A DNA stretch of 26,935 nucleotides from Neoconidiobolus thromboides FSU 785 (taxonomy: Eukaryota > Entomophthoromycota > Entomophthoromycetes > Entomophthorales > Neoconidiobolaceae): the NCBI GenBank assembly GCA_025603075.1, contig MU626504.1, positions 1-26,935 on the forward strand, read 5' to 3'. Below, one piece after another: positions 8,341 through 26,935 of the stretch. Both the position numbers and the translations under genes were made by a program. The stretch's first letter is position 1; every line of letters begins with the position of its first letter. Under the pieces are notes generated by a model. It did no database searches. It saw nothing but the letters and a program-made list of their open reading frames with translations, and was not told the DNA's origin.

Positions 8341-8374
8341 TTGATTTTTTTATTGTTATTTTGACTTTCTTAGT

Positions 8375-9900: not shown

Positions 9901-9919
9901 ATTATTAAAAAAAACTCAG

Positions 9920-10438: not shown

Positions 10439-10494
10439 ATATGATTAGGGTAAAATATTAATTTTTTTATAATTAATAAAGTTAATTTTCGATA

Positions 10495-10583: not shown

Positions 10584-10693
10584 TGTTTGTAAATATATAT
10601 TAATAAATATATATTTGATACGATTTAATAGAAATTAAACTTAAATTAGTAATTTTAATTAATTTTAATAGTTTTACTGGGATATTAATAATT

Positions 10694-10790
10694 GAAGATG
10701 TTTTTTTGGCTTCACCACCTATTTATTTTTTGTGCTATTTAAGTGAAAAGATTGTTAGTAAAATTCTTAGACACAAAACATATTCCGTTG
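10694..10790 (+). repeat. MITE-like 105-bp repeat, copy 5 (degenerate)
   Basis: Recognisable by TTTTTTTGGCTTCA, GTGCTATTTAAGTGAAAAG and ATTGTTAGTAAAATTCTTAG followed by ACACAAAACATATTCCG. Both terminal CATATG ends are eroded. Confidence 0.7.
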
Positions 10791-11747
10791 TTTGTTGATA
10801 ATGATCAATTTTCTTTATTTAAGGTCAAAGCTAAAGGCCTATTTAAATAAAATTAGAAGCTCCCTGTTTGATTTTCTTATGGATAGTCCTAAACAAAAAA
10901 ATATTTGTAATGGTGGTTAACCATAACTTTCAAAGCAAAAAAAATCGATGTATAAACCAAATTACTCACTAAATATATATCTCTTTGTTTTCATCTTTTT
11001 TATAAAAAGTAAACGTAATTTAATTCATTAATGTTTTAGAGTAAATTTAAAGGACTTAATCAGAGTACAACTACAATATTTACAATTGTTTAAAATTTCA
11101 AATTAACACTATGTCAATATTTTAGTTTAATGTTGTTAAGTTAATTGCATCTTTTACTATTAAGAGGTTTTCAAATAATCTATTTTTAATATAGAAAACG
11201 GTAAAATTGTACATCTGCTATAATAAAAAAATTTACTATAAAAAGAACTGAGTTTTAAGCTAGATAAATTTTAATCAATGATGTATCAAAAAACAGGAAT
11301 AAAACTGTTACAACCAAAAACTTTCACTATTTTAACACTTGGCTATCAACAATGAGTATGATTAGTGATTGTTTTTTAAAGCAAGACTAAGAAAAGTTAA
11401 ACTCATTCAATTTGGTAGTCAAAAGACTACTTTAATTAAACTTATTTTCTCAAATTAATTTAGCACCCAAAGATTAAGGATCGTCCCAATAATTTAAAAT
11501 AAATATTTTTTAGATTCAAAAGGATCTCAACATATAGGTTTTTTAAAAACTTAGTATTTCGAATTTTTTAAATGACACTTGTGTATTCATATAATAAATC
11601 TTTAAATTCTTAAGTTTTTTACTTATAAGGAAAGACATACTACTTTTAAAAGCGTACTATAATTGAACTTATTAACAGTGTTTATTTTGTTAAAAGGCCA
11701 AAATAAAAAAGTAGCTTAAAATAATACACATTTATTAAAAAACTCTA
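10791..11747. other. AT-rich spacer between array members 2 and 3
   Basis: Nothing beyond AT-rich sequence is visible until the 3' end of array member 3, whose poly(A) signal AATAAA is at 11731-11736 (complement). Confidence 0.55.
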
Positions 11748-12503
11748 TCAATTTAAAAGATAGCGAATAATAATAGTAATAAGGAATGAAACAAAATAAT
11801 TGTACTTAAGTGTAAATCCAGAGCTATTAGAACTCACAACAATATTTGTAGTAGAAATGAAGTTTTTAATTGTTGTGGTCAATGCATAGGTACTACTTCT
11901 AGTATAAGGGCCATCAGTTAGATTTGATGAAGGATTACTGACACTGGAGCTTGAGCTTGAATCGGTTGAACTAACATTAGAACTAGTTGAGCTAGAATCA
12001 GATGAAGTTGACCCAGATGTAGTATTGTTGGTTGCAGTTGAAATAGATACATTATTGTCAGTTAAAGTTGAAGAAGGCATACCATTATCCATAGTTAAAG
12101 TATACACAGTCCCATTGATTGAAGTAGAGTCAAACACATTGCCATTGACTGAATTTGGAGCAGATATAATACCATCAGTTGAAGTTGAAGACAGTGGTGG
12201 ATCCTCCATGATTAGTGTAGATGTGAAAATTACGTTTTTAGTTGGTGTAATTGTAAAAATCTCATCTGTAGTTGGAGTAGATGTAAAGTTAACATGAGCA
12301 ATCATACCACTACTAAAAATATTTTTAGTACTCAAACCAGTCATTGTAGTTGATATTTGACTATCTGAAATACTAGAATTATCAGCTGAAACTATTGAAT
12401 TGGTCTCACTATCGACACTAACTAAAATAGAAGTACCTGTACTACTTGATTGTACAGTGATTAAATTAAAGAATAAAGACAGTATTAAATTATTGAAACG
12501 CAT
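11748..12503 (-). CDS. Ser/Thr-rich GPI-type cell-surface protein, array member 3, 251 aa
   Basis: The longest family member. Signal peptide MRFNNLILSLFFNLITVQ. The body is rich in Thr, Ser, Asn and Ile/Val, and includes a run of loose repeats built on TPT(T/K)(D/N)xIF(T)xT and 'S(T)DG/NG(x)' units (roughly residues 70-150), which explains its extra length. A dense Ser-rich stretch follows (about 160-195). The end is NSSGFTLKYNYFVSFLITIIIRYLLN, the family's GPI-type tail with an Arg inside the hydrophobic part, which could weaken GPI processing. Many Asn-X-Ser/Thr sequons are present. Surface or wall mucin-like role is inferred. The + strand frame at 12025-12297 is the antisense shadow of the repeats. 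Confidence 0.82.
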   Translation of the reverse strand: MRFNNLILSLFFNLITVQSSSTGTSILVSVDSETNSIVSADNSSISDSQISTTMTGLSTKNIFSSGMIAHVNFTSTPTTDEIFTITPTKNVIFTSTLIMEDPPLSSTSTDGIISAPNSVNGNVFDSTSINGTVYTLTMDNGMPSSTLTDNNVSISTATNNTTSGSTSSDSSSTSSNVSSTDSSSSSSVSNPSSNLTDGPYTRSSTYALTTTIKNFISTTNIVVSSNSSGFTLKYNYFVSFLITIIIRYLLN

Positions 12504-12555
12504 ATTGTATTAAATTAAAAGATTAATTTTTTATGTTTAATAATATTCATTTTCG

Positions 12556-12636
12556 AAAGCTTTTATATTAAAAACTTGATAATTTTATGCCAATTGGCTT
12601 CAAAAATGAGCATTATTTCAAAATAAAATCCTCAGC
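12556..12636 (-). promoter_or_regulatory. Promoter of array member 3
   Basis: A TATA-like TATAAAAG word (complement of about 12560-12567) lies about 60 bp before the ATG and a degenerate box GCCAAT (12589-12594) about 90 bp before it. The distal partner is degraded (CTCAGC at 12631-12636). Flanking words such as GAGCATTATTTCAAAATA are shared with the promoters of members 2 and 4. Confidence 0.45.
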
Positions 12637-13023
12637 TATCTTAAATCTATTTGTTATCTTTTTCTTGATTGAATTAGTTGCATTTAAATGATTCTATTAA
12701 GATAATTTGTCATCAATATTTTATAATGAATTTATAAAATATGATATTACATATGGCTCATAAACTCAATATGTAAGAAGCTAATTACATATTAAAATAA
12801 AATTAAGGCATCTAGATGTAATCAATTCTATGATTTAATAGAAATAAGGCTTTAAATAGAATATTCATTTCAATGGCGTTACCAGCATTTCAATATTTTT
12901 TAAAAGTGATCATCTATACTTTAACTATAAACAAAGTTAAAAGTCTAGCTATGTAAAAACATAGGCTCTCAAGTACTTTTTTATAGATACTACTGATATA
13001 ATTAAAAGAGGATTTTTTTACAC

Positions 13024-13130
13024 GATTTGGGGATGTATTTTTTGTTTAAGAATTTTACTATCAATCTTTTCACTCAAATAGCACTTAAAGATAGAAAAAT
13101 TAATGAAACCAGAAAAAACATCCTCAAATC
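13024..13130 (-). repeat. MITE-like 105-bp repeat, copy 6
   Basis: Starts GATTTGGGGATGT and ends ACATCCTCAAATC. The two ends are near-perfect inverted repeats of about 13 bp, here with GATTTG replacing the usual CATATG. Internal CACTCAAATAGCACTTAAAG and AATTTTACTATCAATC match the family in reverse orientation. It lies about 125 bp beyond the stop of array member 4. Confidence 0.85.
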
Positions 13131-13254
13131 AAGTAAATCCACGTTCAAATCAACAGTAGTTTGATAACAAAATATTTTAAGATGCAAGAGAAATCCATCT
13201 TTAAATTTAAAAGTAAGATTCAAATACTATACACATTTATTAGAAAAAACTTAA

Positions 13255-13749
13255 TTAATATACAAGATAACCAAGGGCCATAGTAGTAAAAAAGGAAACT
13301 AAATAGCTGGACTTAATTGTCAATCCAGAGCTACTATTGTCTACATTTGGTTTACTTGAGAAGGTAGAAACTGAAACAGTACTTCTAGTAGTTGTTGAGG
13401 TACTACTTGGAGTGTAAGAGCCATCAGTAGAACTTGATGAAGAGCTGATGCTACTTGAATCAGTTGAATCAGTTGTAGTGGATGCACTAGAATCAGTTGA
13501 GGTTGAAGTAGAAGTAGATGCAGTGCTATCAGTTGAAGTAGAAGTAGAAGTTACGTCAGTAGTTATACTACTTCCAGAAGTATTTGTGGTGCTTGAATCA
13601 GTAATTGTAGTTGGTGTTTGAGTCCCTAGAGTACTTGAATCAGTACCACTAAGGGTACTAGCTGAAGTAGTAGAGGTAGCATCTGTAACACTTGATTGTG
13701 CAGCAATCAAAGTAAGGATTGAAGATAAAATTAGAGGATTGAATTTCAT
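13255..13749 (-). CDS. Ser/Thr-rich GPI-type cell-surface protein, array member 4, 164 aa
   Basis: Signal peptide MKFNPLILSSILTLIAAQ, then an almost pure Ser/Thr body with interspersed Asp, Ala, Gly and Val (many TSTSTDS-type words), and a closing segment NSSSGLTIKSSYLVSFFTTMALGYLVY, the family's hydrophobic GPI-type tail. Of the five members this has the simplest mucin-like body, with no Cys and only a few Pro. Extended O-glycosylation at the cell surface is inferred from composition. Upstream it has the best-preserved copy of the array promoter; downstream it shares the CATTTATTA element (AATAAA on the gene's strand, 13236-13241) about 15 bp past the stop. Confidence 0.83.
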   Translation of the reverse strand: MKFNPLILSSILTLIAAQSSVTDATSTTSASTLSGTDSSTLGTQTPTTITDSSTTNTSGSSITTDVTSTSTSTDSTASTSTSTSTDSSASTTTDSTDSSSISSSSSSTDGSYTPSSTSTTTRSTVSVSTFSSKPNVDNSSSGLTIKSSYLVSFFTTMALGYLVY

Positions 13750-13805
13750 GTTATATTAAAGAAATTTGTAATTTATTTTAATAATTGATAATGTTCATTT
13801 TCAAT

Positions 13806-13893
13806 AGTTTTTATATAGTTTTAAAACTGGCTAATTTCATGCCAAGTTCTTCTAAATAGGGAGCATTATTCTTTTTAAAATAGAATTCTTGGC
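13806..13893 (-). promoter_or_regulatory. Promoter of array member 4: TATA element and paired inverted boxes
   Basis: + strand GCCAAG (13841-13846) and CTTGGC (13888-13893), starts 47 bp apart as in member 2. A CTATATAAAAAC TATA element (complement of about 13807-13818) sits 57-69 bp before the ATG. Between the boxes is GGGAGCATTATTC, also present in the other array promoters. Confidence 0.55.
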
Positions 13894-14301
13894 TTTTCAG
13901 AATCTATTTTTATTTTGATGTATTGAGATGATTTAATATAGTTCACCAATCATTTTAATTGAGATATTATGGGTCCATTTTAAAATGTGGTGATATTTTT
14001 TTATTTGTCATTTTATTCTACTGTGATTTAATAATGGAGGTGTTTAGCGAAGGAATTAACAATTTTAAATGAAAACAGTTACAAACTAAAAAATAAACTG
14101 TATTGAAATTAATTCAATGAAACTATATTATTAATAATGTGAATATTCTATTTTTTATTGTAACAGCCGTTTTTTTCTATAATGTATTTATATAATGGAA
14201 TAATAGATGATATAGAGAACACTTAATTTTAATTTTTATAATAACAAATAGTTTACAGTTAATATAAAATTAAGAAAAAAATGTTAAAAAACTACAATGA
14301 A

Positions 14302-14403
14302 CATATGGAAGTGTTTATTTTGACTTCATCACTTTTTCCATTTTTTAAGTACTATTCGAACGGAAAATTTGTTAGTAATTATACAAAAAATACATCCCCA
14401 TAT
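14302..14403 (+). repeat. MITE-like 105-bp repeat, copy 7
   Basis: CATATGGAAGTG at the left, TTCATCACTTTTTCCATTTT, AAGTACTATTCGAACGG in the core (AAGCGCT changed to AAGTACT), and TACATCCCCATAT at the right. A few bases are missing before the right end. Confidence 0.82.
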
Positions 14404-14555
14404 AAATTTTTATTGATTAAGCTATAATAAGCCTTTTGAAATAATCGGATTTGAAGTTGAATATAAAGCTATTGAGAAAATAATTAACTAGAAGGAGAAA
14501 AACTTGAAATCAAATAATAAACAAAAGAATAACAATATTTGACTAATAGATAAGT

Positions 14556-15520
14556 TTAGCAAATGTAATCTGGATAAACTCTAACATCTAAAATATCATC
14601 CATTAAGTGGTCTATCCAGCCATCATTAGCCCTAAAACAAATAACGGTATGGGACTTCTTGGGTTCAATCATATGACCAAGAGCTTTGATATAAAAAGCT
14701 AAAAAATGGGCCTTTCTAATCCCATTGTACCCAATTAGTAATATGGTTTTTATTAAGCTTTGTAAAGCCAAAATCAAGTTTCAAGGTAAACCCTTCTTTT
14801 TTAGAAAACTATTTTTTATGGACATTCCTATTTGTTCATAAATTTAGAACTATTTTTGGATTTTAAAATTTTAGGTTAGATTAAATCATAAAAATATGGA
14901 ATTGAAAACAAAAACTCGATTTCTACAATTCAATTCCAATGTCTTTACTTTGTAAATGCGGAATTTTGGATAACTCTGGAATTTACTTACAGAGAAATGT
15001 ATAGCTCTGGAACTAAGCTCAGACACTTAGAGGGTCTCTCTCAAAAGTTACGTTATAATAGTCTAAGACTATAGTTTCAAACCTTTAGTTCCAAAGCATT
15101 GCCTATTTGGCTATGAAGAGATGGGCAAAAAGTCTCTTATTATTTTGTTGACTCTAAATACAGTCAATCCTTTTAGAATTCTTATGATGCCGTCTTCATT
15201 AATGGTATAATATTTAATTATTTTTCTTAAAACATTGATTTTTTATAGAAGGAACATTCCTTGAGATTAATCTTTTTTCAATTCATGTTTACTGATACAG
15301 TGGCCTGGATTATTCACAGAAAATTCTATTGTCTGAACGTTGGATCAGTAACATTGCCTTCTCTAATAAATCCTATATTTTTAAACGGGACTTCCTTGAT
15401 TACTCAAGAAACCAAATATGATTTATTTTTTACTGATTGATCATTCAAGAGTATTGACTAGGCAGCGTATTTGAATCTCCTTAATGATCTCTCAAAGCTG
15501 AATTCATCCTTAGCCTTTAA
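14556..15520 (-). pseudogene. Decayed protein-coding region, unidentified
   Basis: An open frame at 14556-14777 gives 73 residues of mixed, protein-like composition (...GYNGIRKAHFLAFY...SHTVICFRANDGW...RVYPDYIC) in DNA clearly less AT-rich than its surroundings. Farther upstream on the same strand, stop-interrupted stretches also read as protein-like, for example around 15440-15500 (DEFSFERSLRRFKYAA then a stop), 15330-15400 (EVPFKNIGFIREGNVTDPTFRQ) and 15130-15200 (EDGIIRILKGLTVF). Several in-frame stops and frame changes suggest one decayed gene or mobile-element remnant spanning about 1 kb. I do not recognise the family; separate unrelated fragments, or exons with unseen introns, remain possible. 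Confidence 0.35.
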
Positions 15521-15593
15521 TTAGTTAGTCTATTTTTTTGTAAATAAATTACATTACTTTTCCCTATGTGTTAATAAGTTTATAAAAAAATAC

Positions 15594-15702
15594 CATATGA
15601 GAGTGTTTTTTTTGGCTTCATTACTTTTTCTATTTTTTAAGCGCTATTTAAGTGAAAAATTTGTTAGTAGAATTCTTAAACACAAAAATACATCCCCATA
15701 TG
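15594..15702 (+). repeat. MITE-like 105-bp repeat, copy 8 (type example)
   Basis: The most complete copy: CATATGAGAGTG at the left and ACATCCCCATATG at the right, imperfect inverted repeats of about 19 bp including the T/A runs. In between are the TTCATTACTTTTTC block, AAGCGCTATTTAAGTG and TTTGTTAGTAGAATTCTTAA. The word TTATAAAAA occurs on both sides, within about 15 bp of the ends, but not exactly abutting, so a target-site duplication is not proven. Confidence 0.88.
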
Positions 15703-15783
15703 CTTATAAAAACTTGATTATAAGCCAATAATTAATTTACTAATAACATTAAAAACAATTGAAATATTAAAAAAATAAACTAA

Positions 15784-15889
15784 CATATGTGGCTATTTTT
15801 TTTTGTTTCATTATTTTTACATTATTTAAGTGCTATTTGAGTGGAAAAACTGTTAGTAAAATCCTAAACACAAAAATACATCCCCATAT
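15784..15889 (+). repeat. MITE-like 105-bp repeat, copy 9
   Basis: CATATGTGGCTA at the left, TTTCATTATTTTTACATT, AAGTGCTATTTGAGTGG, CTGTTAGTAAAATCC and TACATCCCCATAT at the right. It has the same orientation as copy 8, about 80 bp away. Confidence 0.85.
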
Positions 15890-16209
15890 TATTAACTTCA
15901 ATCAACAATGACTTCATTTCCCTAATTATTAACCCCTTCGCTTTTAACTCCTTCAAGTATTCGATAGGAAATCAAATCCAATATTTTAATATGAAGACAA
16001 GTTATAGACAAATCATTCTAGTTCATCCTAATAAATGCTAAAAAATTGCAGCTCTAACTTTTTAATTAGTGATCCCTTAATATGTTCTTCAAGTAACTGT
16101 CTCTCCAATTACATGCTATCAATTTCTTAGCTAACACCATTATAAGGCAGATTTGAACTATGAATAATTGTAAAAAGATAGATAATAAACATGGTATGTT
16201 AAGGTATAT

Positions 16210-16311
16210 GATATGGATGTGTTTTTATTTCGTTACTTTTTCCTTTTAAGCACCATTTGAGCCGAAAAATTGTTAGTAAAGTTCTTAAACAAAAAAATAA
16301 ATCCCCGTATA
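16210..16311 (+). repeat. MITE-like 105-bp repeat, copy 10
   Basis: GATATGGATGTG at the left, TTTCGTTACTTTTTCC, AAGCACCATTTGAGCCG, AATTGTTAGTAAAGTTC and AATCCCCGTAT at the right. A few bases are missing from the T run before the core. Confidence 0.82.
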
Positions 16312-16391
16312 TTTGGCTTCCATATTTTTATATATCAACCTTAAAAATTCTTCAAATTCTTTATGTAAAACAAAAAGTTCATTGTTTTATA

Positions 16392-16496
16392 ATATGAGGA
16401 TGTATTTTTTTGTTTAAGAATTTTACTAACAATCTTTCCGCTCAAGTAGTGCTTAAAAATGAAAAAACCAATGAAGACAAAAAAACATTACCATAT
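16392..16496 (-). repeat. MITE-like 105-bp repeat, copy 11
   Basis: Reverse orientation: ATATGAGGATGTATTTTTTTG at the left and ACATTACCATAT at the right, with AATTTTACTAACAATC and CGCTCAAGTAGTGCTTAA inside. It faces copy 10 across about 80 bp, forming a large inverted pair, and lies about 95 bp past the stop of array member 5. Confidence 0.85.
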
Positions 16497-16591
16497 ATTG
16501 TAATTACCCTTATTGATCTATTTTGACTGTATAGAAAATATTGTAAATTAAAAAGCAAAATTAAATAATACTCATTTATTAAACAACTCAA

Positions 16592-16978
16592 TTAATTTAT
16601 AAGATAACCCATAACAATAGTAGTAAAAAAGGAAACTAAATAATTAGATTGAATCATAGATCCAGAACTACTGCTATTTCCATTTGGTCTATTTGAGGAT
16701 CTAGAAAATACAGTACCACTAGTTGAGGTAGATACAGCACCACTAGTTGAAGTAGATACAGCACCACTAGTTGAAGTAGATACGGTACCACTGATTGAAG
16801 TTGCAATAGAAGTTACACCAGTAGTAATGGTACTTGAGCCAACAATTATAGTTGATGTTTGGCTAGTGATATCAGTAGTAGTGCTAGTTTGAATAGTAGA
16901 AGTACTAAGTGTACTACTACTTGATTGAGCAGAAATTGAAGTAAGAAGTAATGGTAAAATTAAAGTATTGAATTGCAT
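16592..16978 (-). CDS. Ser/Thr-rich GPI-type cell-surface protein, array member 5, 128 aa
   Basis: The shortest and first-transcribed array member. Signal peptide MQFNTLILPLLLTSISAQ; a Ser/Thr body with Ile and Val; an octapeptide tandem repeat (STSTSGAV-type, about residues 64-90); a basic spot (SRSSNRPNG); and the tail SSSGSMIQSNYLVSFFTTIVMGYLIN, a GPI-type hydrophobic end. Small residues (Ser, Gly, Asn) precede the tail. Function is inferred as an O-glycosylated surface or wall protein. The repeat is nearly identical at the DNA level, so protein length may vary between strains. Poly(A) signal AATAAA is at 16575-16580 (complement), as in its siblings. Confidence 0.82.
   Translation of the reverse strand: MQFNTLILPLLLTSISAQSSSSTLSTSTIQTSTTTDITSQTSTIIVGSSTITTGVTSIATSISGTVSTSTSGAVSTSTSGAVSTSTSGTVFSRSSNRPNGNSSSSGSMIQSNYLVSFFTTIVMGYLIN
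16716..16787 (-). repeat. 24-bp in-frame tandem repeat, three copies
   Basis: Three nearly identical 24-bp units (CCACTAGTTGARGTAGATAC plus 4 bases on the + strand), followed by a diverged fourth start at 16788. Each encodes eight residues of array member 5. The unit length is a multiple of three, so copy-number change would keep the frame. Confidence 0.8.
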
Positions 16979-17035
16979 TATTGTATTAATCTAAGTTATT
17001 ATTATTATTTTTAATGATTATAACGTTCATTTTTT

Positions 17036-17312
17036 AATAGTTTTTATATAGTTTCTAAACTAGATGAACTTTATGCCAAGAAATTTTAAATAAATATTCT
17101 TTTAAATAAAGAATTTGAATGAGTAAAGTCCCAAGTATTTTATTATTGAAAGTAAAAGAAGATTAAATAAAAGTAAAGAGAGTGGAAGTCAAGGGTACGA
17201 TAGACTAAGAAAGCTAAAAATAAAGCAAAAACTCATTAAACGATTGGTAGAAGATATTTAAGTTCATAAGTATAGTACCCATGGGGTTTTTTTTCAAAAT
17301 AGAATTCTTGAC
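17036..17312 (-). promoter_or_regulatory. Promoter of array member 5, split by extra DNA
   Basis: A TATATAAAAA element (complement of 17041-17050) lies about 65 bp before the ATG and GCCAAG (17075-17080) about 97 bp before it. The distal half of the conserved promoter (AAAATAGAATTCTTG then ACT, with the box changed to CTTGAC at 17307-17312) is found about 230 bp away, not 47. About 185 bp of unrelated sequence (roughly 17110-17293) separates the halves. Confidence 0.45.
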
Positions 17313-18122
17313 TATTTTTAATCTATTTTTATTTTAATCATTCAAGAATATTTAATGTAATTGACCAAAAGTTTCAATTGAAATATTATAATAATACAGG
17401 TAATTAAACTGACTCAGATAAGTAATAAAAAAACCCTGTAAGATGATCAATACAATTTATATCTAATGAAGTTGATTTAAGACACTTGATTAGTTAAAAT
17501 AAAGATAACCTTTGGACAAAATTATTTCATTATTTGTTACAGTCAACTTAAATACCCAAATTGTTAGCCTAGTCCAAATTAAACATTGAATTTACTAAAT
17601 TTATTGTTTTTTTATTTATACTCTTAATAATAAAAGTTATAGACAAGGGAACTAATATTACGTAAACAGGGACAAATTCAAAAACTTTGATCAGATTAAA
17701 AATTCAGTTTATGATAGTTGTATTTGTAATAAAATAAAACAAATATTGTTATTTTGATGATAGACAAAATAAGTCATTATATTATTTATACTGATGTGCT
17801 AACATTCTTTTATATTAAATACTATTAGCTGTTTTAATATTCATTAATAATAGTTTTTTTAATTTACTAAATTTAGAAAAAATAATAGTATTTGTCGGAT
17901 ACTTTTATTGTTAGTTTTATTTAATAAAAAAGAAGCCATTAAAAACCAATAAACTTTTGATTAATAATAGTCGATTTATTAATAACTAATAGTAAATTAA
18001 AAGCCTAATATTCAAGTATTTGGAATTAAAATAATAATAAAAAATAATAAATCACTTAGGTAATATTTAAATAAAACAAAAATGGGCAAAAACTCACCCA
18101 AATGCAATTTTAGAAAATAATA
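17313..18122. other. AT-rich spacer before the tRNA gene
   Basis: Very AT-rich with many short poly-T and poly-A runs. I see no reading frame, repeat-family copy or RNA gene in it. Confidence 0.6.
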
Positions 18123-18194
18123 CTCTCGAGCGGGGAATTGAACCCCGGTCTCCCGCGTGACAGGCGGGGATACTCACCACTATACTACCCGAGA
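18123..18194 (-). tRNA. tRNA-Asp (anticodon GTC)
   Basis: On the - strand, 72 nt fold as a complete cloverleaf. The acceptor stem is TCTCGGG with CTCGAGA (one G-U pair), the anticodon stem CCCGC/GCGGG encloses loop CTGTCAC with anticodon GTC (complement of 18159-18161), and the T arm CGGGG-TTCAATT-CCCCG carries the B-box. The discriminator base is G, as expected for Asp, the A-box reads TAGTATAGTGG, and there is no intron. CCA is not encoded. A TTTT (complement of 18115-18118) just downstream can serve as the Pol III terminator. Confidence 0.97.
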
Positions 18195-18686
18195 CTTTGT
18201 TATTAATCCTTATTTAAATTTTGTATATATAACTTTTCAACAAAAATATGATTGTGTGATAATAACAAAACAGAAATAAAGATGTTAGATATTAAGAATT
18301 TTAGGATTCAAGAGTAAAAAAACTTAAAAAGATTAACAAGTTAAATAGATGAGTTTTCAAATGACTAATTAGTTGACATTAATGTGAATGAGTGATTTGT
18401 TTTAAAATGGCTGAAGTGGGAGAGTTATTAAGTTTAGTTTTTTGTATAAAAGTTGATGTTCAACATAAATAATAGTAATAAAATTTTAGTGAGTTTGATA
18501 GAAATTAATACAATCCTGTTGTATTTAAGTATATTCCATTTTGTTTAATTCGTTATCATTCTTTTTTATTCAATTTAGAAATCATATAGAATATTAAAAT
18601 TTTGAAAGTTATTAAAAACCAAATTTAGTAAATTAAAATAAAATAAAAACTATTCAAATGAAATTAGTTTTAAAAATGAGATTAAA

Positions 18687-18695
18687 ATCAGATAA
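18687..18695 (+). promoter_or_regulatory. Iron-GATA site ATCAGATAA, downstream of first NIS synthetase
   Basis: Exact match to ATCWGATAA, the extended site bound by fungal GATA-type iron repressors (Fep1/SreA/Urbs1 family). It lies about 80 bp past the stop of the 18774 gene, an unusual position, so it may be incidental. Confidence 0.35.
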
Positions 18696-18773
18696 AACAT
18701 TTAATAACAGATCAATTTATTTGTTAAAAAAATAAGCTAGATAAAAAATATAATAAAAATAAACAAAATTAAT

Positions 18774-20585
18774 CTAACGATTTAAGAACTTTGAATTAGG
18801 GGAAGAATCGGACATATTAAAGTCCTTAGGAATTTGATAGGAGATAAGATTAGGTACTTTAGTATATAAATAATCTCTATACAAACCACCTAATTTCATA
18901 GTAATAAAGGCTTTAAAATCAGTAGTTGGACTTTCTAACCAAAGTTTTCGAGTTAAACAATTTTCTTTAGGTAATAATTGATCTAACTCATTACGAACAA
19001 TTTCCCAACCTAATCCATTATAATGTAAATTTAAACTTCGAATTACTCGATGTAAATGCATCATAAACATAGTATGATAAGCTACATGATGCATATCTTC
19101 ACTATTTTTTGCAATTTGACAAGCTTCTGAATTCCATACATTTACTTGTAATCCAGTCACTTCCTTTAATTGAGTTTGATCTACTTTAATACCACCAAAA
19201 TCACGTACAGCAAAGCCAGTAATTTGATAATTATTATTATTATCTAATTTTAATCGACATAATACATTTTGTAAATGAGCTTCATAAGTTAAACCATATT
19301 TATAAACAGGAGTAGCAAAGGCTTTTAAATATTTTTGACAATAATTAGTAAAAAACTCAATACATTTAGCTTCTGTATTTAAATTCAATACTTTTTTCAT
19401 TACAGATATACCATCGGAATCAACTTCAGTTAATGCTGCTGTTACAATTAATTTTTCACCTTTTTGTTCACATTTTTGTTCAATTTCCTCTCTAATTAAA
19501 CAAGATAAATGTTTAGCAATATCGGAATCTTCATGTTTAGAAACAATAGAACCTACTTCATCCATTACCATTAAATTTTCAAAATCATCATTAATACGTT
19601 CATAAATAGGTCGAAAGTTGGGACCAACATGAGTTGTCCAGGGAGTAATTGTACGTAAAGCACTAGTTACTTTAATACCAACTGCTAATTTAAAACTATA
19701 ATTTGGTATCGAATCTAATACTACAGTTCTTAAGGCGGCCTGTGCTTTACTTTCTAATTTTTTACTTAATTGTTGGACAAAAGGAAATTTTTCTAAGATA
19801 TTGGGCATTTGTAATTCATGAATAAATATCAAAGCTTCCGTTTCTCTATTAATTTCATGTTTTAATTCTTCATATAAAGATTCAATAACTTGCTCATATT
19901 TTCCATTAATAGTGACTTGATCACGTGGTACTTTACATACAATGATTGTTGGATTTAATAAATTATTTTTTAATTCAATTGGCTGTAATGGAGGTAGAGC
20001 ATACCTTGACTTGTTCATTGGGTGAGTTGGATGACCTTCAACGATAGATTGTTCCCAATCAATTGCTTTAGAATGTTGAACATTTAATAAAGATTGTCTA
20101 TTTAAATAAGCATATTGTTGATGATCTACACTACATAATAATTCTTTACTTACTTTATTGACAATATTCATATCAAATTGATTCCATTTAGATATTAAAT
20201 TTAATATGAAATCTAAATCATTAATTTCAACAATATTTTCTTCCTTATTTTCATTAAAATAGTATAATGGAAATTGAATTTCTTGAGGATCTAATAGCCC
20301 AATTGAATAAATCTTATCTTGATTATTATTTCTAGTTTCATTAATTAATGGCATCTCTTTTAATCCAATAATAAACCCTTCTTCATATAACTTATCATGT
20401 TTTTGGTAAATTATACCATAATATTTATTATTATTAGATAGTTGATATTTACTCATAATAGAAGAAGAGACTAATTGAGTTTCTACCATACTTTCATTAA
20501 CAATACAAGATATCAATCTAGAAAACATAGCTTGTTTAGCTTGGGAATAAGAAGTATCCGTTGAATTTGAAGTTTTACTACTCAT
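18774..20585 (-). CDS. NIS (IucA/IucC-type) siderophore synthetase, 603 aa
   Basis: An NRPS-independent siderophore synthetase, which adenylates a carboxylate (typically citrate) with ATP and condenses it with an amine or alcohol. The fungal example known to me is the rhizoferrin synthetase of Mucorales (citrate plus putrescine). Family landmarks: GHPTHPMNK at 184-192 (the ATP-binding HPxHP motif), KVTSALRT at 305-312, the EAHLQN active-site motif at 435-440, RDFGG at 461-465, and a C-terminal FhuF-like helical part with MKLGGLYRDYL at 563-573. Length is normal for the family and no intron is needed, which fits the bacterial ancestry proposed for such genes. No signal peptide, so cytosolic. 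It is a paralog of the 24181 gene. Upstream lie four ATCWGATAA sites. Exact substrate (rhizoferrin or another citrate siderophore) is inferred. Confidence 0.92.
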   Translation of the reverse strand: MSSKTSNSTDTSYSQAKQAMFSRLISCIVNESMVETQLVSSSIMSKYQLSNNNKYYGIIYQKHDKLYEEGFIIGLKEMPLINETRNNNQDKIYSIGLLDPQEIQFPLYYFNENKEENIVEINDLDFILNLISKWNQFDMNIVNKVSKELLCSVDHQQYAYLNRQSLLNVQHSKAIDWEQSIVEGHPTHPMNKSRYALPPLQPIELKNNLLNPTIIVCKVPRDQVTINGKYEQVIESLYEELKHEINRETEALIFIHELQMPNILEKFPFVQQLSKKLESKAQAALRTVVLDSIPNYSFKLAVGIKVTSALRTITPWTTHVGPNFRPIYERINDDFENLMVMDEVGSIVSKHEDSDIAKHLSCLIREEIEQKCEQKGEKLIVTAALTEVDSDGISVMKKVLNLNTEAKCIEFFTNYCQKYLKAFATPVYKYGLTYEAHLQNVLCRLKLDNNNNYQITGFAVRDFGGIKVDQTQLKEVTGLQVNVWNSEACQIAKNSEDMHHVAYHTMFMMHLHRVIRSLNLHYNGLGWEIVRNELDQLLPKENCLTRKLWLESPTTDFKAFITMKLGGLYRDYLYTKVPNLISYQIPKDFNMSDSSPNSKFLNR

Positions 20586-20744
20586 TTTCTTAACACGATA
20601 TATATAAAATCTAATTTAAAATAATTTATTTTGTTTCAACTTGTTAAAGAATCGATTATATTTAGTTGACTTTAAATACTTTTTGTTTGACTAAGCAATT
20701 TAGAAAGATCACAGAATAAATTTTGATTGTTTCTTATCATCCAA

Positions 20745-20790
20745 ATCAGATAAAACCCATACGATAATGTGTATTTTTAGTTTATCAGAT
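20745..20790. promoter_or_regulatory. Two inverted iron-GATA sites upstream of first NIS synthetase
   Basis: ATCAGATAA at 20745-20753 (+ strand) and ATCTGATAA at 20782-20790 (- strand), 160 and 197 bp upstream of the ATG at 20585. Paired sites on opposite strands are a common arrangement for two-finger fungal GATA repressors of siderophore genes, so iron repression is the likely role. Confidence 0.65.
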
Positions 20791-20944
20791 AGAAGGTATT
20801 ATGACTTTTATAGTATAGAATATTATTTTATTCTAGATTGAACTAGATGTTATAGATAGCCTAATTAGAACATGTTAAAGATTAAATTTGTTGACTTAAT
20901 CCTTTATAATTAGATAATTGAAAATTCAATAAACTATTACAAAG

Positions 20945-20953
20945 ATCTGATAA
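20945..20953 (+). promoter_or_regulatory. Iron-GATA site ATCTGATAA
   Basis: Exact ATCWGATAA match 360 bp upstream of the first NIS synthetase, in the spacer shared with the divergent FetB-like gene. Confidence 0.55.
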
Positions 20954-21150
20954 AATTAAAGTTAAATTTGATTGGTTGATTAATTTTAATCGACATTTAA
21001 TCAATATCTAACTGTTAATATGAAAAGTGTACATTAAGTATAGCTTATTCTTTAGTCTAGTTCTACTAGTCATAATAAACGCAAGGTTTTAAAATAAACT
21101 TGTAATCTTATTAATCTACTATATAAATAAATTTAGTTTATTATTTCTTT

Positions 21151-21159
21151 ATCTGATAA
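21151..21159 (+). promoter_or_regulatory. Iron-GATA site ATCTGATAA
   Basis: Exact match in the middle of the divergent spacer, about 570 bp from the first NIS synthetase and 880 bp from the FetB-like gene. It could serve either. Confidence 0.5.
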
Positions 21160-21187
21160 AAACTATCATTAGCTTTTGTAATTATAA

Positions 21188-21229
21188 TAAGTAAAATAAG
21201 TAAAATAAGTAAAATAAGTAAAATAAGTT
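21188..21229. repeat. 9-bp tandem repeat (GTAAAATAA)n
   Basis: Four perfect copies of GTAAAATAA (21191-21226) with partial units on both sides, in the spacer between the divergent NIS synthetase and FetB-like genes. Confidence 0.85.
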
Positions 21230-21800
21230 ATATATTTTTATAAAATTAAGTTAAAGTGAAACAACACATAATATGGTAGCATTATCTAATAGTAAAGCAT
21301 TAAGGGGTTAATACGAATTAATGATGTAAGGATAATAGAATAGAGTCAATTAATTTTATGTCAGGGAGCTTTACCTTATAATAATCAACAATCATGTTAT
21401 CACTCCAACCCTTTTAATCTGATCACGCATAAATAGTTTATTCATTTCTATTTAATAGTTGTTTCATAGATTATCAATTTTCTATTTTATAAAAAAATAA
21501 CAAGATCAAAAAATAGGAGGATTTTATAGATTATCAGTAACCAAACAAATGTAAGTATTTTATTGAAAAAAAAAGAATTAAAAATTTAATAAAAGAAAAC
21601 TTATATTTTGCATAGCTTATCATACCCCATTGTATGGTGTTGATAATTTTAGTATTTGTATATAATGGGATTCAAATGCCTTATAGTTAAATTTACTAAT
21701 TTTAGCTAATTGTCAATTTAAATTAGAAATAAAATAAATCTTAGATTATTTCTGTTAAGCTAAAATAAACAACATAAATAAATTCAAGTAGAAATAAAAT

Positions 21801-21809
21801 ATCTGATAA
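21801..21809 (+). promoter_or_regulatory. Iron-GATA site ATCTGATAA upstream of the FetB-like gene
   Basis: Exact ATCWGATAA match 233 bp upstream of the ATG at 22034, a normal promoter distance, linking the membrane protein gene to the same iron control as the synthetases. Confidence 0.6.
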
Positions 21810-22033
21810 AAAGTAATCTATAATTCTAATATTCATTTTTATTCTTATAAATTCAATTGATTTATGATTTATTGATTTATTAACCTTCCCTTAATGTAAA
21901 AAAATTACAACTAATCATTATCAACTTTTATACATTATAAAAATCATTTCTCTTTTCTTTTCTTTTTTGATCATTCTTTTAATTAAAGTTCATTCATTTT
22001 ATTAATCTATTTCTCGATCTCTAACTCATAAAG

Positions 22034-23213
22034 ATGGATTCATCACAATGTCCTATTACAAACAACAATAAATATGTATCCGTTGGATGGGATGCAGTAG
22101 GCTGGTCAAGTTTATTTGTAGTATTTAATATAATATTATCCCTCGCATTACAATTAAAAATGGAAGTCTCTCTTATAATAGCTAGTGTACGATGTTTAGC
22201 CCAATTAACTTTAATGGCTTATATATTAAAACCTGTGTTAGATTCAGATGAAATTTGGATCCCATTTTTGATGGCTGGTAAGTTACTTTATTCCTTATAT
22301 TATTCTATATAATTCTATATAATTCTATATTATTCTATATTATTCTATATTATTCTATATTATTCTATATTATTCTATATTATTCTATATTATTCTATTT
22401 TATTCTATTTTATTTACAAATTTTGATTTTTATAGCTATCTTTGTTATCTTAGCAAGTTATGAAACAGTATATCATCAATCAAAAGTGCGACATCGATCT
22501 ATGGTAAGTCATATTAGTTAATTTTTTATTTTAAATTAATTAATTAATCCTATTATCTCTAGTTAATTATAGTCTTTATCTCTATTTTAATTAGCAATGG
22601 AGTAGTTGGAATTATTGGTCTCGCCTGTATTATTAAAGTATTACCTTTTTGGCAACCTCAACAATTTATTCCTATTATCGGTATGTTGCTTGGTAACTCA
22701 ATGTCTGGTATGGCCGTTGGTATTTCCCATTGTTTACAAACACTTAGTACTCAAAAAGATAGTATAGAAATGTATCTTTCATATGGTAGTACGCGTTGGG
22801 AAGCTTCACGTCCCATTGCTATTCAATCCATACGATTAGGTATGATACCCACTATCAATGCTATGTGTGTGATGGGAATTATCTCCATTCCAGGGATGAT
22901 GACTGGTCAAATTTTAGGTGGAGCTGATGTATTGGATGCTGTAAGGTATCAACAAGTTACCATGTTTATGATATTATCATCTACTGCATTAGGTACTTTA
23001 TTATCTGTCTCAGGTGCACTATTTGTGTGTATTGATAGATATCATCGTCATAGAGCTGATCGTATTTATAATACTCCTGCTTGGCAAGAGGTACTTTATA
23101 TCAAATACGTGGCTACTCCAATTAGTAAAGGGTTTTTGAATATTAAAGCTATGTTCAAGAATAAGCAAGGTGGAGCTATTGATGTTAATGAAGCTTTTAG
23201 GGAAAAGAATTAG
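22034..23213 (+). CDS. FetB/STAR2-like UPF0014 membrane protein, three exons, 320 aa
   Basis: Spliced gene with exons 22034-22277, 22436-22503 and 22563-23213 (963 coding bases), joined by GTAAGT...TATAG and GTAAGT...CTCTAG introns. Both junctions keep the frame and restore family sequence (...FLMA-AIFVILASYE and HRSM-LIIVFI). The family is UPF0014: E. coli FetB, the membrane half of the FetA-FetB iron exporter, and plant STAR2/ALS3. Signatures are GMLLGNSMSGMAVG in exon 3 (near residue 145), MGIISIPGMMTGQILGG (near residue 205) and several hydrophobic membrane spans. A charged cytosolic tail follows the last span. No ATPase partner is visible nearby. Its position between two siderophore synthetases and under the same GATA motif suggests a role in iron or siderophore movement; substrate and membrane are inferred. 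Poly(A) signal AATAAA is at 23273-23278. Confidence 0.9.
22301..22410 (+). repeat. 10-bp tandem repeat filling intron 1 of the FetB-like gene
   Basis: Eleven copies of TATTCTATAT or one-base variants (AATTCTATAT early, TATTCTATTT late) make up most of the 158-bp intron. The gradual change in variants at both ends is typical of slippage expansion. Confidence 0.9.
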
Positions 23214-23393
23214 ATATTTGAAAAGTAGAATTAGTTATTGTTTTTTAGTAGAAGATATTACATTACAAGTTTAATAAAAATTTAAGTTGTTTTTTTTGTA
23301 TTCATTTTATTTATTCACTTAGTTTTACTTATTTTGAATCTTTATTTATTTAATAAATAGAAAACAAAAAGTTTTTAAGTCGATTTTAATTAT

Positions 23394-23421
23394 AAAAATA
23401 AAAAATAAAAAATAAAAAATA
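23394..23421. repeat. 7-bp tandem repeat (AAAAATA)4
   Basis: Four consecutive AAAAATA units in the spacer after the FetB-like gene, directly before a degraded copy of the dispersed repeat. Confidence 0.7.
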
Positions 23422-23437
23422 TTGAAATATTAAGCTG

Positions 23438-23523
23438 AGTTTTTGAATTTCATTTATTTTTTAAGCATTATTAAAAAGTGAAAAATTGTTAGTAAAATTC
23501 TTTAAAAAAGGCATTTTCATATG
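23438..23523 (+). repeat. MITE-like 105-bp repeat, copy 12 (eroded)
   Basis: Recognisable from TTTTTTAAGC, AAGTGAAAAATTGTTAGT and AAAATTCTTTAA, and a right end TTTTCATATG. The left end is lost. Confidence 0.6.
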
Positions 23524-23923
23524 CTTATTTTGATTAATAAAATATCAATAAAATACTTTTATTTCAATTAAGAAACAAAAAAAATCAATATCTAGTTCAA
23601 CATATTAACTTCAATTATAAATAATTGATAATAATTAGTAACTTTTGTTAATTAAACTCTTATCCCTAATAATTAGAACTCATAAACCCTGTTTCTAATA
23701 AATTTGAGTTCATAAACTCTATTGTAAACTATAACAAATAGCCTAAACTAATTTTAGTTAAAGTATTTCTAAATTACTTTGAATAATAATTGATAAGTAA
23801 TCATGATAAACTAACAACATAACCCCAACCATCTAGATAAATGAATAATCTTTTAACCTTACACTAAAACTCATCTTAATCTTATAAGCCTCATTTTTAT
23901 TATGTACAATCATAATCACAGTG

Positions 23924-23973
23924 TTATCAGATATCCTATTTTATTCTTTCTATAAAAAAAAGCAATCAGATAA
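23924..23973. promoter_or_regulatory. Two inverted iron-GATA sites upstream of second NIS synthetase
   Basis: ATCTGATAA on the - strand at 23924-23932 and ATCAGATAA on the + strand at 23965-23973, about 257 and 216 bp before the ATG at 24181. As before the first synthetase, two sites lie about 40 bp apart on opposite strands, here in the opposite order. Confidence 0.65.
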
Positions 23974-24054
23974 AATTTTGATATTTTTAACAATCATCAA
24001 GAACAAATTATAATCTAGGATTAGCCAATAATATAAAACTCAAACAATTAATAT

Positions 24055-24063
24055 TTATCTGAT
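24055..24063 (-). promoter_or_regulatory. Iron-GATA site ATCAGATAA, promoter-proximal
   Basis: Exact match on the - strand 126 bp before the second NIS synthetase start, 34 bp upstream of a TATAAAA element (24097-24103). A repressor bound here could block initiation. Confidence 0.6.
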
Positions 24064-24180
24064 GAAAATATCAATTTCTCTATTAAAAGTGAAGCATATA
24101 AAAACTTAATTTCAGAAACAATGAGAATGCAAAATTCGAGTTAATCTCTTTTCATTTTATTCTTTGAAAAATCCACTAAA

Positions 24181-25926
24181 ATGACCCTGGATGATGTTGA
24201 TTTAAAACAAAAAGCTTCTGAAGCTATGATCAAACGTTTAGTTACTTGTATGGTTAATGAAGATATGGTAGCTACCAAATTACTTACTGACAATCATTCG
24301 TTTAATTTACCTACCTTCGATTATAATCATTTAAGTTTTATAACTCAAAAAGATTCTATTAATCCTCAAGAAGGTTTCTTATTAAAATTACAGCATTTAC
24401 CTTTACTTCGTGAAATTGATAGTGGATTTTCTATAGGTTTACTTGATCCCATGGATATTCAATTCCCATTCTATTATTATTCCAATGATAAATTAACTGA
24501 ACTCGATGATGTAACCTTTATAATGGAAAAAGTAAGTATATGGAATAATTTTGATGCTGTTATGGTGAAAAAAGTAACCTTAGAATTGTTGAGTTGTGTA
24601 GAACATCAATATCATGCCTATTTAAATAGAAAAGAAATATTAAATGTAGATACAGCTAAAGCAATTGAATGGGAACAATCTATTGTTGAAGGTCATCCAA
24701 CTCATCCAATGAATAAAGCAAGACATGCCATTGCACCTATCCCATACATTAAGCCAGAAGAAGATATGTTAAGTCCTAAAATGATTGTTTGTAAAGTACC
24801 ACGTGAGGAAGTAACTATCTTAGGTAAATATGAATCTGTATTAAAACCTTTATATGAAGAATTAGCTGGAGAAGTAAATATTGAAACTGAAGCTTTGATT
24901 ATGGTCCATGAATTACAAGTTTACAATTTAAAAGAGAAATTTCCTAATGTCAAAGTATTAAGTAAACAAATCTCAAGTTTGTCTCAAGCTACACTAAGAA
25001 CTATGAAAATTGATGGATTTCCAAACTTTAATTTTAAATTACCATTAGGTATTAAAGTGACTTCAGCATTAAGAACAGTGTCCCCTTGGACTACTTTCTT
25101 TGGTCCTAATTTTGGTCGAATTGCACAAAAAATTAATTTAGATAAAGAGAATTTAATTATTGTTGATGAAGTAGGCTCAATTGTTTCTAATCATCCATCA
25201 ATTGATATGGCTAAACATTTATCCTGTTTGATTCGAGAAGAAGTGGAAGTTCAATGTTTAAAAAGAGATGAAAAGGTAATTATTGCAGCTGCATTAACTG
25301 AAATTGATTTTGATAATGTATCTGTATTAACAAAAGTGTTTAATTTAAATACTTATGAAAAAAGAGTATCTTTTTTTAAAACATATTGTGAAAAATATTT
25401 AACTGCTTTCCTTACCCCAGTAATTAAATTTGGTATTGCATGGGAATCTCATTTACAAAATACATTATGTCGATTTAAAAAAGTAAATGAAGAATATCAA
25501 TTAGTTGGTTTTGCTATTCGTGATTTTGGTGGTATTAAGGTTCATCAAGATACTTTATTCGATGCCATTGGTGAAAAAGTACTAGTATTTAATGAAGATG
25601 CTTCCCAATTAGCTCATAATAAACAAGATATGTACCATGTAGCCTATCATACTATGTTTATGATGCATCTTCATAGAATTCTTCGCTGTTTAAATTTACA
25701 TTATAATGGAATAGGTTGGGAAATCGTTAGAAAAGAGCTAGACAGACAATTACCTAAAGACCATGAGTTGAGGCACCATTGGTTGGAAAATAAAGAAGCA
25801 GATTTCAAAGCGTTTATTTCCATGAAATTAGATGGTTTATTTAGGGATTATCTTTATACTAAAGTACCTAATTTAATTTCTTATCAAATACCTAAAAAGT
25901 TCGAAAGTAAAGTAGTTGATTATTAA
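24181..25926 (+). CDS. NIS (IucA/IucC-type) siderophore synthetase, second paralog, 581 aa
   Basis: Second NRPS-independent siderophore synthetase. By eye it shares well over half its residues with the 18774 product in the core, so the two are duplicates. Landmarks: GHPTHPMNK at 171-179 (ATP/phosphate motif), KVTSALRT at 292-299, ESHLQN at 422-427 (active site), RDFGG at 447-451, and the C-terminal segment MKLDGLFRDYLYTKVPNL at 548-565. All family motifs are intact, so both copies look active. They differ in the N-terminal region and in the loop after the HPxHP motif, which leaves room for different substrates or successive condensation steps, as in bacterial IucA and IucC. Intronless and cytosolic. 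Three ATCWGATAA sites and a TATAAAA element precede it. Poly(A) signal AATAAA is at 25970-25975. Confidence 0.92.
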   Translation: MTLDDVDLKQKASEAMIKRLVTCMVNEDMVATKLLTDNHSFNLPTFDYNHLSFITQKDSINPQEGFLLKLQHLPLLREIDSGFSIGLLDPMDIQFPFYYYSNDKLTELDDVTFIMEKVSIWNNFDAVMVKKVTLELLSCVEHQYHAYLNRKEILNVDTAKAIEWEQSIVEGHPTHPMNKARHAIAPIPYIKPEEDMLSPKMIVCKVPREEVTILGKYESVLKPLYEELAGEVNIETEALIMVHELQVYNLKEKFPNVKVLSKQISSLSQATLRTMKIDGFPNFNFKLPLGIKVTSALRTVSPWTTFFGPNFGRIAQKINLDKENLIIVDEVGSIVSNHPSIDMAKHLSCLIREEVEVQCLKRDEKVIIAAALTEIDFDNVSVLTKVFNLNTYEKRVSFFKTYCEKYLTAFLTPVIKFGIAWESHLQNTLCRFKKVNEEYQLVGFAIRDFGGIKVHQDTLFDAIGEKVLVFNEDASQLAHNKQDMYHVAYHTMFMMHLHRILRCLNLHYNGIGWEIVRKELDRQLPKDHELRHHWLENKEADFKAFISMKLDGLFRDYLYTKVPNLISYQIPKKFESKVVDY

Positions 25927-26174
25927 AAAAGAAGTTTGTGATAAAAAACGTTACATCTGATAGTGGATGAATAAAATAATTTTATTTTTTTAATATTTTG
26001 TTGCTTTGTTTTATCGTTTATTTTATTTTGATTTTATTGATGTTGATATGATGGACTTACATTAGTTTTTTGATATAACATATTGATAGATAGATACATG
26101 TAAGCTACAAGGGCTTTGAAGTCCTCAGACTCAGACCCAAAGGCGTATCAATTGATAAGTTGACATAAAGTAAG

Positions 26175-26276
26175 ATAAGAGGATTTTTTTGGTCCCATTA
26201 CTTTTTCCATTTTTTAAGCTCTATTTAAATCGAAAAGTTGTTAACAAAATCCTTAAACAAAAATACATCCCCATAA
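26175..26276 (+). repeat. MITE-like 105-bp repeat, copy 13
   Basis: ATAAGAGGATTTTTTTGG at the left, CATTACTTTTTCCATTTTTT, AAGCTCTATTTAAATCG, GTTGTTAACAAAATCC, and TACATCCCCATAA at the right. Confidence 0.8.
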
Positions 26277-26455
26277 GATAAGTTCAATACTCGGGCAATG
26301 GAAGTGAGAAGTTTTAAAGACTTCTTAAATATAAGATAAAAACTATAATTTAGATTAATTGAATTAGTGTAATTGATAAGACTTAAAAGAATGATTTATT
26401 TCATAATAAATAATAAAATAGAGCTTAATCAAGAGAAATTTTAAAAGGAATTTAT

Positions 26456-26563
26456 GATTTGGGGATGTATTTTTGTGTTTAAGAATTTTACTAACAAATT
26501 TTCCGCTTAAATAGTGCTTAAAAAATGGAAAAAATAATGAAGTTAAAAAAACATTCCCATTTA
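26456..26563 (-). repeat. MITE-like 105-bp repeat, copy 14
   Basis: Reverse orientation: GATTTGGGGATGTATTTTTG at the left, AATTTTACTAACAAATT, CCGCTTAAATAGTGCTTAA, ATGGAAAAAATAATGAAG and ACATTCCCATTT at the right. It faces copy 13 about 180 bp away. Confidence 0.85.
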
Positions 26564-26833
26564 TATACTTTTTATGAGTCTAAAAAGCATTAATGAACTA
26601 TATTTTATATTCATAATATATATCATCAAGATTAGTAATAATTTTAAGATTGATTTTCTTTATATTAATTTTTAAAATGCATTCAATTTTATAAAGTGAT
26701 TTGATTAATAATTCTGATAAAAACAGCTCTTACTTTTATTTTATAACTAATTTACTAAATTGATATTTTATTTTCACATAATATTTTTATTTAAAACAAT
26801 TATATTTTACATTAAAAATAAATAGATAAAAAC

Positions 26834-26935
26834 TTATTGAATGGATATCCTTATTTTCTTGTCTTCTTTCTTAACTCGCTTTGGAATTATTAGATTCAAT
26901 ACTCCATCAGTTAGATCTGCTTGAATCTCTTCAGC
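26834..26935 (-). CDS. Small heat shock protein (Hsp20/alpha-crystallin), C-terminal end (partial)
   Basis: The last 33 codons of a - strand gene that enters from the right edge, ending with TAA at 26834-26836. The residues (AEEIQADLTDGVLNLIIPKR...KKIRISIQ) match the end of the alpha-crystallin domain: the 'A-L-x-D/N-GVL-x-L-x-IPK' strand, a basic linker, then the I-x-I motif (IRISI) that docks onto neighbouring subunits in sHSP oligomers. The protein would be an ATP-independent chaperone that holds unfolding proteins under stress. The start and the rest of the domain lie outside the window, so length and introns cannot be judged. Confidence 0.8.
   Translation of the reverse strand, partial: AEEIQADLTDGVLNLIIPKRVKKEDKKIRISIQ

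Follow-up and report, generated by a model that had tools for sequence, protein, structure and literature searches.

In this study, we identified a dense cluster of the nine-base word ATCWGATAA at a siderophore locus of the fungus Neoconidiobolus thromboides FSU 785. The stretch of DNA analysed, hereafter the window, is 26,935 bp long and makes up the whole of contig MU626504.1 (C247 in our numbering) in a 23.1-Mb genome assembly of 392 contigs; C numbers below are contigs, and L numbers are stretches of the same genome. The locus holds genes for two nonribosomal peptide synthetase (NRPS)-independent siderophore (NIS) synthetases, NIS1 and NIS2, with a FetB/ALS3-like permease gene between them. 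We read the cluster as putative sites of an iron-sensing GATA repressor of the SreA/Fep1/Urbs1 type, whereby NIS siderophore synthesis would be repressed by iron and the repressor would feed back on its own gene, and we put the probability of this reading at about 0.8. An earlier note, made from the window alone, had likewise proposed iron-repressor sites in what looked like an early-diverging fungus. The host, a member of the Entomophthorales, is such a fungus, and the iron-repressor reading is supported by the specificity for the extended word, by two GATA factors with a Cys-rich linker, and by clusters of the word at metal-related genes.

An exact search of both strands of the window returned 10 words, all within 18687-24063, and zero matches in positions 1-18686 and 24064-26935 (Table 1). 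The earlier note had listed nine positions and confined the word to the siderophore locus; all nine are correct, and the tenth is the reverse-strand word at 21149, which overlaps its partner at 21151. Nine of the 10 lie in the spacers upstream of NIS1, the FetB-like gene, and NIS2, in keeping with the claim that most of them do, and the word at 18687 is probably incidental. Dinucleotide shuffles of the window held 1.49 words on average and 5 at most, with 0 of 100 reaching 10, and the genome mean of 0.057 per kb corresponds to ~1.5 words per window-sized stretch, which agrees with the note's estimate of under two by chance. Genome-wide, a count that the note had proposed as a check, there are 1313 copies (658 forward, 655 reverse) versus 956 of the reversed-pattern control. 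Thus, the word is only mildly over-represented across the genome but strongly concentrated at the siderophore locus. Poisson probabilities, uncorrected for the picking of the window, were 5e-11 (at least nine non-overlapping sites within 5377 bp) and 5e-6 (at least 10 in the whole window); among the sites listed on contigs C1-C6, the densest 5.4 kb held five words, or four non-overlapping ones. The two spacers (2.4 kb together) hold nine words versus ~0.18 expected (0.112 and 0.065 in shuffles of each), and for neither did any of 2000 shuffles match the observed count. This over-representation holds for NIS1 and NIS2; the FetB-like gene has one proximal site only.

The enrichment concerns the full ATC-extended word, beyond GATAA alone. 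The ATC prefix was carried by 9 of 22 WGATAA words in the spacers versus 2 of 349 in a 98.6-kb background (Fisher P = 8e-11), and by 8 of 23 upstream of the C98 regulator, an SreA-type gene described below. This background was composed of window positions 1-18600 and 8 of 20 ten-kb stretches, three of them picked for ferric-reductase matches and five regardless of motifs, and it holds 0.02 words per kb, under the genome mean; the other 12 were the two regulator stretches (L027 and L028), the weak reductase stretch L032 with its palindromic pair, and nine chosen for their words (L033-L041). With the five blind-picked stretches as background, the share was 2 of 199 (P = 8e-9), and it was 4 of 379 in a background with the L032 stretch added. 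Backgrounds in which the stretches were largely motif- or gene-chosen gave 30 of 687 (all stretches minus the two regulator ones; P = 5e-7) and 39 of 771 (all 20 plus window 1-18600; P = 1.4e-6). GATAA itself is two to three times as dense in the spacers (8.3 and 11.7 per kb) as in the background (4.5 per kb), an excess for which the extended words and the lower GC content of the spacers account in part. Given the ATC-prefix contrast across all backgrounds tried, generic GATA-rich sequence was rejected as the whole story. A single shared repeat as the origin of the clusters was also rejected: their promoters have in common only short, mostly AT-rich matches, and the alignment score for the regions upstream of NIS1 and NIS2, 18, is within the range of 20 shuffles (-0.5 to 20). 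No homology is detectable beyond these short stretches, so the clusters do not derive from one copied repeat.

A search of the genome for GATA factors gave 12 matches. Two of the frames, on C98 (403 aa from the first ATG) and C85, each encode two Cys-X2-Cys-X17-Cys-X2-Cys fingers, separated by a linker of the form C-x-GDG-x-C-(N/D)GTGG-xxx-C-x-GCP with four conserved Cys residues. The linker reads CAGDGHCNGTGGSSACSGCP in C98 and CPGDGNCDGTGGKVACDGCP in C85 and is missing from C70, a third two-finger protein, whose fingers lie close together; C71 has a single finger, and further matches fall on shorter frames. By the diagnostic domain plan of their predicted products, C98 and C85 are SreA/Fep1/Urbs1-type factors, so the genome contains two proteins of the kind that the earlier note had suggested looking for, with two zinc fingers and a Cys-rich linker. 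A regular expression found two fingers and such a linker in 118 of 120 listed relatives of C98, and some of these carry the source names Suppressor of ferric uptake 1 (Basidiobolus, Entomophthora) or URBS1 (Choanephora). A tree of 33 rows, for which 31 of these 120 relatives were used, groups C98 with one Entomophthora muscae protein (support 98/98) and C85 with another (98/93); both branches are long, and according to a warning from the program, groupings of this kind can be spurious. This arrangement suggests an old duplication. ATCWGATAA words stand 190, 251, 416, 490, 783, and 923 bp before the C98 ATG, with a palindromic pair ~2 kb before it, a total of eight words in 1.8 kb upstream of the regulator's own gene.

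To locate further clusters irrespective of genes, we searched 23 Mb for close pairs of the word in tandem (gaps of 0-30 and 31-61), divergent (2-32), and convergent (0-30) arrangement. The search yielded 7 + 5 tandem, 2 divergent, and 2 convergent pairs, i.e., 16 events at 13 places, where ~3.5 would be expected if the words were placed at random, whereas the reversed-pattern control formed one pair in all (1.8 expected). The pairs at 20745/20782 and 23924/23965 are each one of only two of their kind (convergent and divergent, respectively) genome-wide. We examined 11 of the 13 places, all but C39:119757 and C61:38983, taking gene starts from reading frames rather than gene models. Eight lie before recognisable genes (Table 1), two fall inside coding frames, and one, C1:191459-191568, has no recognisable gene. 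The pairs inside coding frames, in a helicase-like frame on C124 and a protein-kinase-like frame on C113 (both named by eye), were rejected as regulatory targets. Deoxyhypusine hydroxylase and KDM4 enzymes need iron; the genes of this kind on C230 and C140 are the weakest cases, with two words in 600 bp, a number matched by 5 of 2000 shuffles each. These pairs also bear on whether the cluster could be a matter of chance or an AT-rich artefact, in a window picked for its unusual density. GC content is ~27%, the genome has 1313 copies of the word, and the window was selected after looking; against this stand the shuffles of each spacer, the 1 control pair versus 16, and the separate eight-word cluster at an SreA-type gene, and we regard such an origin as extremely improbable.

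Table 1. Genes and ATCWGATAA words of the siderophore locus, and genes elsewhere in the genome that are preceded by close pairs. Positions refer to the window unless a contig or stretch is named.
Feature	Position	Strand	Remarks
NIS1, NRPS-independent siderophore synthetase, 603 aa, single open frame	18774..20585	-	Pfam IucA_IucC 3.5e-27, FhuF 1.1e-9
FetB/ALS3-like UPF0014 permease, 320 aa, three exons	22034..23213	+	UPF0014 1.4e-41 on last exon
NIS2, NIS siderophore synthetase, 581 aa	24181..25926	+	Pfam IucA_IucC 2.9e-23, FhuF 7.3e-8
Lone ATCWGATAA word	18687..18695	+	~80 bp past NIS1 stop codon
ATCWGATAA site	20745..20753	+	160 bp upstream of NIS1 ATG; convergent pair with 20782
ATCWGATAA site	20782..20790	-	197 bp upstream of NIS1 ATG; convergent pair with 20745
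ATCWGATAA site	20945..20953	+	360 bp upstream of NIS1 ATG
Palindromic double site	21149..21159	21149- overlapping 21151+	564/566 bp upstream of NIS1 ATG; 883 bp upstream of FetB-like ATG
ATCWGATAA site	21801..21809	+	233 bp upstream of FetB-like ATG
ATCWGATAA site	23924..23932	-	257 bp upstream of NIS2 ATG; divergent pair with 23965
ATCWGATAA site	23965..23973	+	216 bp upstream of NIS2 ATG; divergent pair with 23924
ATCWGATAA site	24055..24063	-	126 bp upstream of NIS2 ATG
Pair places before window genes and GATA factors			NIS1, NIS2, C98 regulator, C70 GATA factor
DUF1636 gene	C18		five words at 54-218 bp upstream of candidate first exon
Phytochelatin synthase	C103; L048:492-1310	-	four words at 104-451 bp upstream
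JmjN/KDM4-like gene	C140		words 363 and 383 bp upstream
Deoxyhypusine hydroxylase	C230		words 111 and 145 bp upstream

Several observations weigh against an iron repressor acting at these sites. Most of the 1313 genome copies are probably incidental, and nine stretches on C1-C4 (L033-L041), fetched for several words or a palindrome, contain no recognised iron gene. In one of them, L035, two words at ~440 and 600 bp precede a frame that by eye resembles the histidine-biosynthesis gene HIS6. One of the strongest clusters of all, with five words in <500 bp (C1:191082-191568; L033:5082-5560), has no recognisable gene within several kilobases. No word occurs in the 10-kb stretches of three of the four ferric-reductase-family matches (L029-L031). 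C85 has a single word, 182 bp before its ATG, and C70, which has no Cys-rich linker, has three upstream, so that ATCWGATAA may not serve iron alone. Finally, in a chrome azurol S (CAS) plate assay, one of three N. thromboides replicates showed a halo, which was small, and the other two showed none (PMC7466969; this and all other papers are cited from excerpts). Those checks of the earlier note that sequence can answer nevertheless largely bear it out: close pairs stand in good part before metal-related genes, with the nine multi-word stretches on C1-C4 and the three ferric-reductase-like loci that have no word as caveats.

Around these places, we further noted that the next clear frame from the C1 cluster, ~4 kb away, reads by eye like the start of a homogentisate dioxygenase, and that neither the C1 cluster nor the C98 stretch had an Rfam match. 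On C4, a major-facilitator frame follows the word at 287498 by 18 bp, and the words at 287862/287864 lie inside its coding sequence. The fourth and weakest ferric-reductase match (L032, on C16), which is cytochrome-b5-reductase-like, has a palindromic pair in its upstream spacer (L032:4885-4887). FTR1 and VIT1 had no match in the genome, an absence that is provisional in that the search reads exons unspliced. There were 12 multicopper-oxidase matches, and a TRI12 search gave 25 major-facilitator matches; the three that could be checked against sites (on C4, C5, and C8) had no word upstream.

Some of these points would also be expected if the sites were read by a nitrogen or general-purpose GATA factor of the AreA/Gat1 type (C70, for example, or C71 with its one finger) and the locus answered to nitrogen. 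The genome does have these further GATA factors and shorter-frame matches, C70 has its three words, and some multi-word stretches are without a recognised iron gene. Nonetheless, what is concentrated is the ATC prefix; in the SreA regulon of Aspergillus fumigatus, HGATAR is slightly enriched versus 5.4-fold for ATCWGATAA (PMC2610380); and the close pairs sit at metal-related genes and at an SreA-type gene. We therefore consider control by nitrogen unlikely.

With an iron-sensing repressor, the circuit could operate as follows. With ample iron, the C98 factor, the C85 factor, or both would occupy the words that lie 126-566 bp before NIS1 and NIS2, as well as the one proximal word of the FetB/ALS3-like permease, and production of a citrate-type siderophore (probably rhizoferrin) would stop. 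Under iron scarcity, the factor would be released and the genes would be expressed. The eight words before its own gene make it probable that the C98 factor holds down its own expression or is under the control of its paralogue. From the sequence we infer binding, iron dependence, the direction of the response (repression), and the siderophore product. As to direction, other members of the SreA/Fep1/Urbs1 group act as repressors. The factors might instead be activators in low iron or dual regulators, since direction is not given by the sites alone, and a GATA-type factor of Lichtheimia corymbifera is up-regulated in iron limitation (PMC4133162). However, self-repression would likewise raise the factor in low iron, so the rise in Lichtheimia would fit it, and the member in Alternaria is said to repress when iron is replete (PMC10146468); activation or dual regulation appears quite improbable.

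Both NIS genes encode an IucA_IucC domain followed by an FhuF-like C-terminal domain, each above the Pfam cut-offs, and they are the only two IucA_IucC matches in the whole genome. They are 57% identical, and the best named relatives of NIS1 are in Basidiobolus, Dispira, Dimargaris, and Syncephalis. In a tree of 28 rows, drawn from 26 of 120 listed NIS relatives, NIS1 and NIS2 are sisters (support 100/99) with Massospora next (96/94), and they therefore probably arose by duplication within this lineage. The remaining rows sort broadly by lineage, except that Mortierella falls among Zoopagomycota-type rows and Agaricomycetes stand beside Mucorales. A profile of 14 fungal sequences matched the solved AsbB, AcsD, DfoC, IucA, DesD, and IucC, whereas a single-sequence search gave no match to solved structures; the FslA model matched far under its cut-off. 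The FetB-like gene scores 142.9 bits against UPF0014 (PF03649; cut-off, 22.6) and 2.8e-22 against the TIGR00245 FetB model, under its curated cut-off. Its exons (22034-22277, 22436-22503, and 22563-23213) have borders set by eye, and their total length agrees with the deposited N. thromboides protein P0241 (320 aa), to part of which a 205-aa query was 100% identical. A tRNA-Asp (GTC) lies at 18123-18194, beyond the 3' end of NIS1.

Elsewhere in the window, a row of short, similar, secreted-looking Ser/Thr-rich proteins, which start with MRFN, MKFN, or MQFN, occupies the minus strand of 7822-16978 (at 7822, 9920, 11748, 13255, and 16592), and two further secreted-looking Gly/Ser-rich frames lie on the plus strand at 1902 and 5692; two of the secreted-looking frames were tested and had no Pfam match. 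The minus strand of 26840-26935 reads by eye as the end of a small heat-shock protein, cut by the contig end. A short frame like FFPFFKRYLSGK recurs in spacers of L027, L033, L036, L048, and L050 and at window 26367-26579, and is probably an interspersed repeat family of the N. thromboides genome.

The dense array at the NIS genes and the two repressor-type factors, one with an equally dense array, make it probable that the iron switch predates the divergence of the major fungal groups. We propose more tentatively, as a possibility that we hold to be somewhat doubtful in its full form, that the ATCWGATAA code and its two-finger Cys-linker factor arose before the Dikarya and were kept while their targets changed. 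In the Entomophthorales, these targets would be NIS siderophore synthesis, apparently without FTR1-type uptake, together with phytochelatin synthase, the DUF1636 protein, deoxyhypusine hydroxylase, and the KDM4-like demethylase; two old paralogues, both with Entomophthora muscae counterparts, would divide the work, and C98, itself a strong target, would close a feedback loop. The circuit would control a siderophore pathway of a different chemical class, and phytochelatin synthase and the DUF1636 protein are nominated as members of the iron regulon. In the literature found, iron regulation in early-diverging fungi consists so far of single-gene observations; in N. thromboides, the sites, the factors, and the candidate regulon can be read together, on evidence from the whole genome and not from one promoter, which yields a testable prediction on the age of the fungal iron-GATA circuit. 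Our literature search, with subscription journals mostly outside it, returned no report of an iron-GATA circuit in this lineage. In the excerpts of Conidiobolus papers on rhizoferrin, iron, or siderophores, iron regulation in N. thromboides is not treated, and among the literature naming ATCWGATAA, only the Mucor work discussed below concerns an early-diverging fungus, judged by title.

The components of the locus can be compared with several known systems. The middle gene belongs to the same UPF0014 family as bacterial FetB and plant ALS3-STAR2; FetB, the partner of FetA, is described by its model name as part of an iron exporter. Schizosaccharomyces pombe and Ustilago maydis, both Dikarya, have one factor each (Fep1 and Urbs1, respectively), whereas N. 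thromboides has a pair of paralogues, and a dense array precedes the gene of one of them. Fep1 and Urbs1 are SreA orthologues whose in vivo sites comply with ATCWGATAA (PMC2610380). SreA of A. fumigatus, a two-finger factor whose Cys-rich region very probably senses iron, recognises the same word, which is over-represented upstream of its targets, siderophore genes among them (PMC2610380, PMC10500206); the siderophores there are hydroxamates and reductive uptake is used as well, in contrast to the NIS type and the lack of an FTR1 match in N. thromboides. The presence of such GATA factors is not new, because a published GATA-factor tree includes Conidiobolus thromboides and calls the siderophore regulators well conserved (PMC5311114). 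NIS synthases are conserved in early-diverging fungi (PMC8070225). A further parallel is rfs of Mucor lusitanicus, the NIS-type rhizoferrin synthetase gene of an early-diverging fungus, whose mRNA goes up in low iron and down with excess iron and in whose promoter an SreA element, ATCWGATAA, was named in silico (PMC9226013). The extension of the circuit to NIS genes that the earlier note proposed is therefore not entirely new; its placement in an early-diverging fungus stands. Mucor belongs to the Mucoromycota, and in the excerpt of that paper the element is named without copy number or genome-wide test (PMC9226013). Altogether, the proposed circuit is of a known kind, and what is added here is the lineage, the density of the words, and the proposed feedback; it counts as a variant in that its targets are NIS genes, its regulators come as a pair, and an array precedes the gene of one of them.

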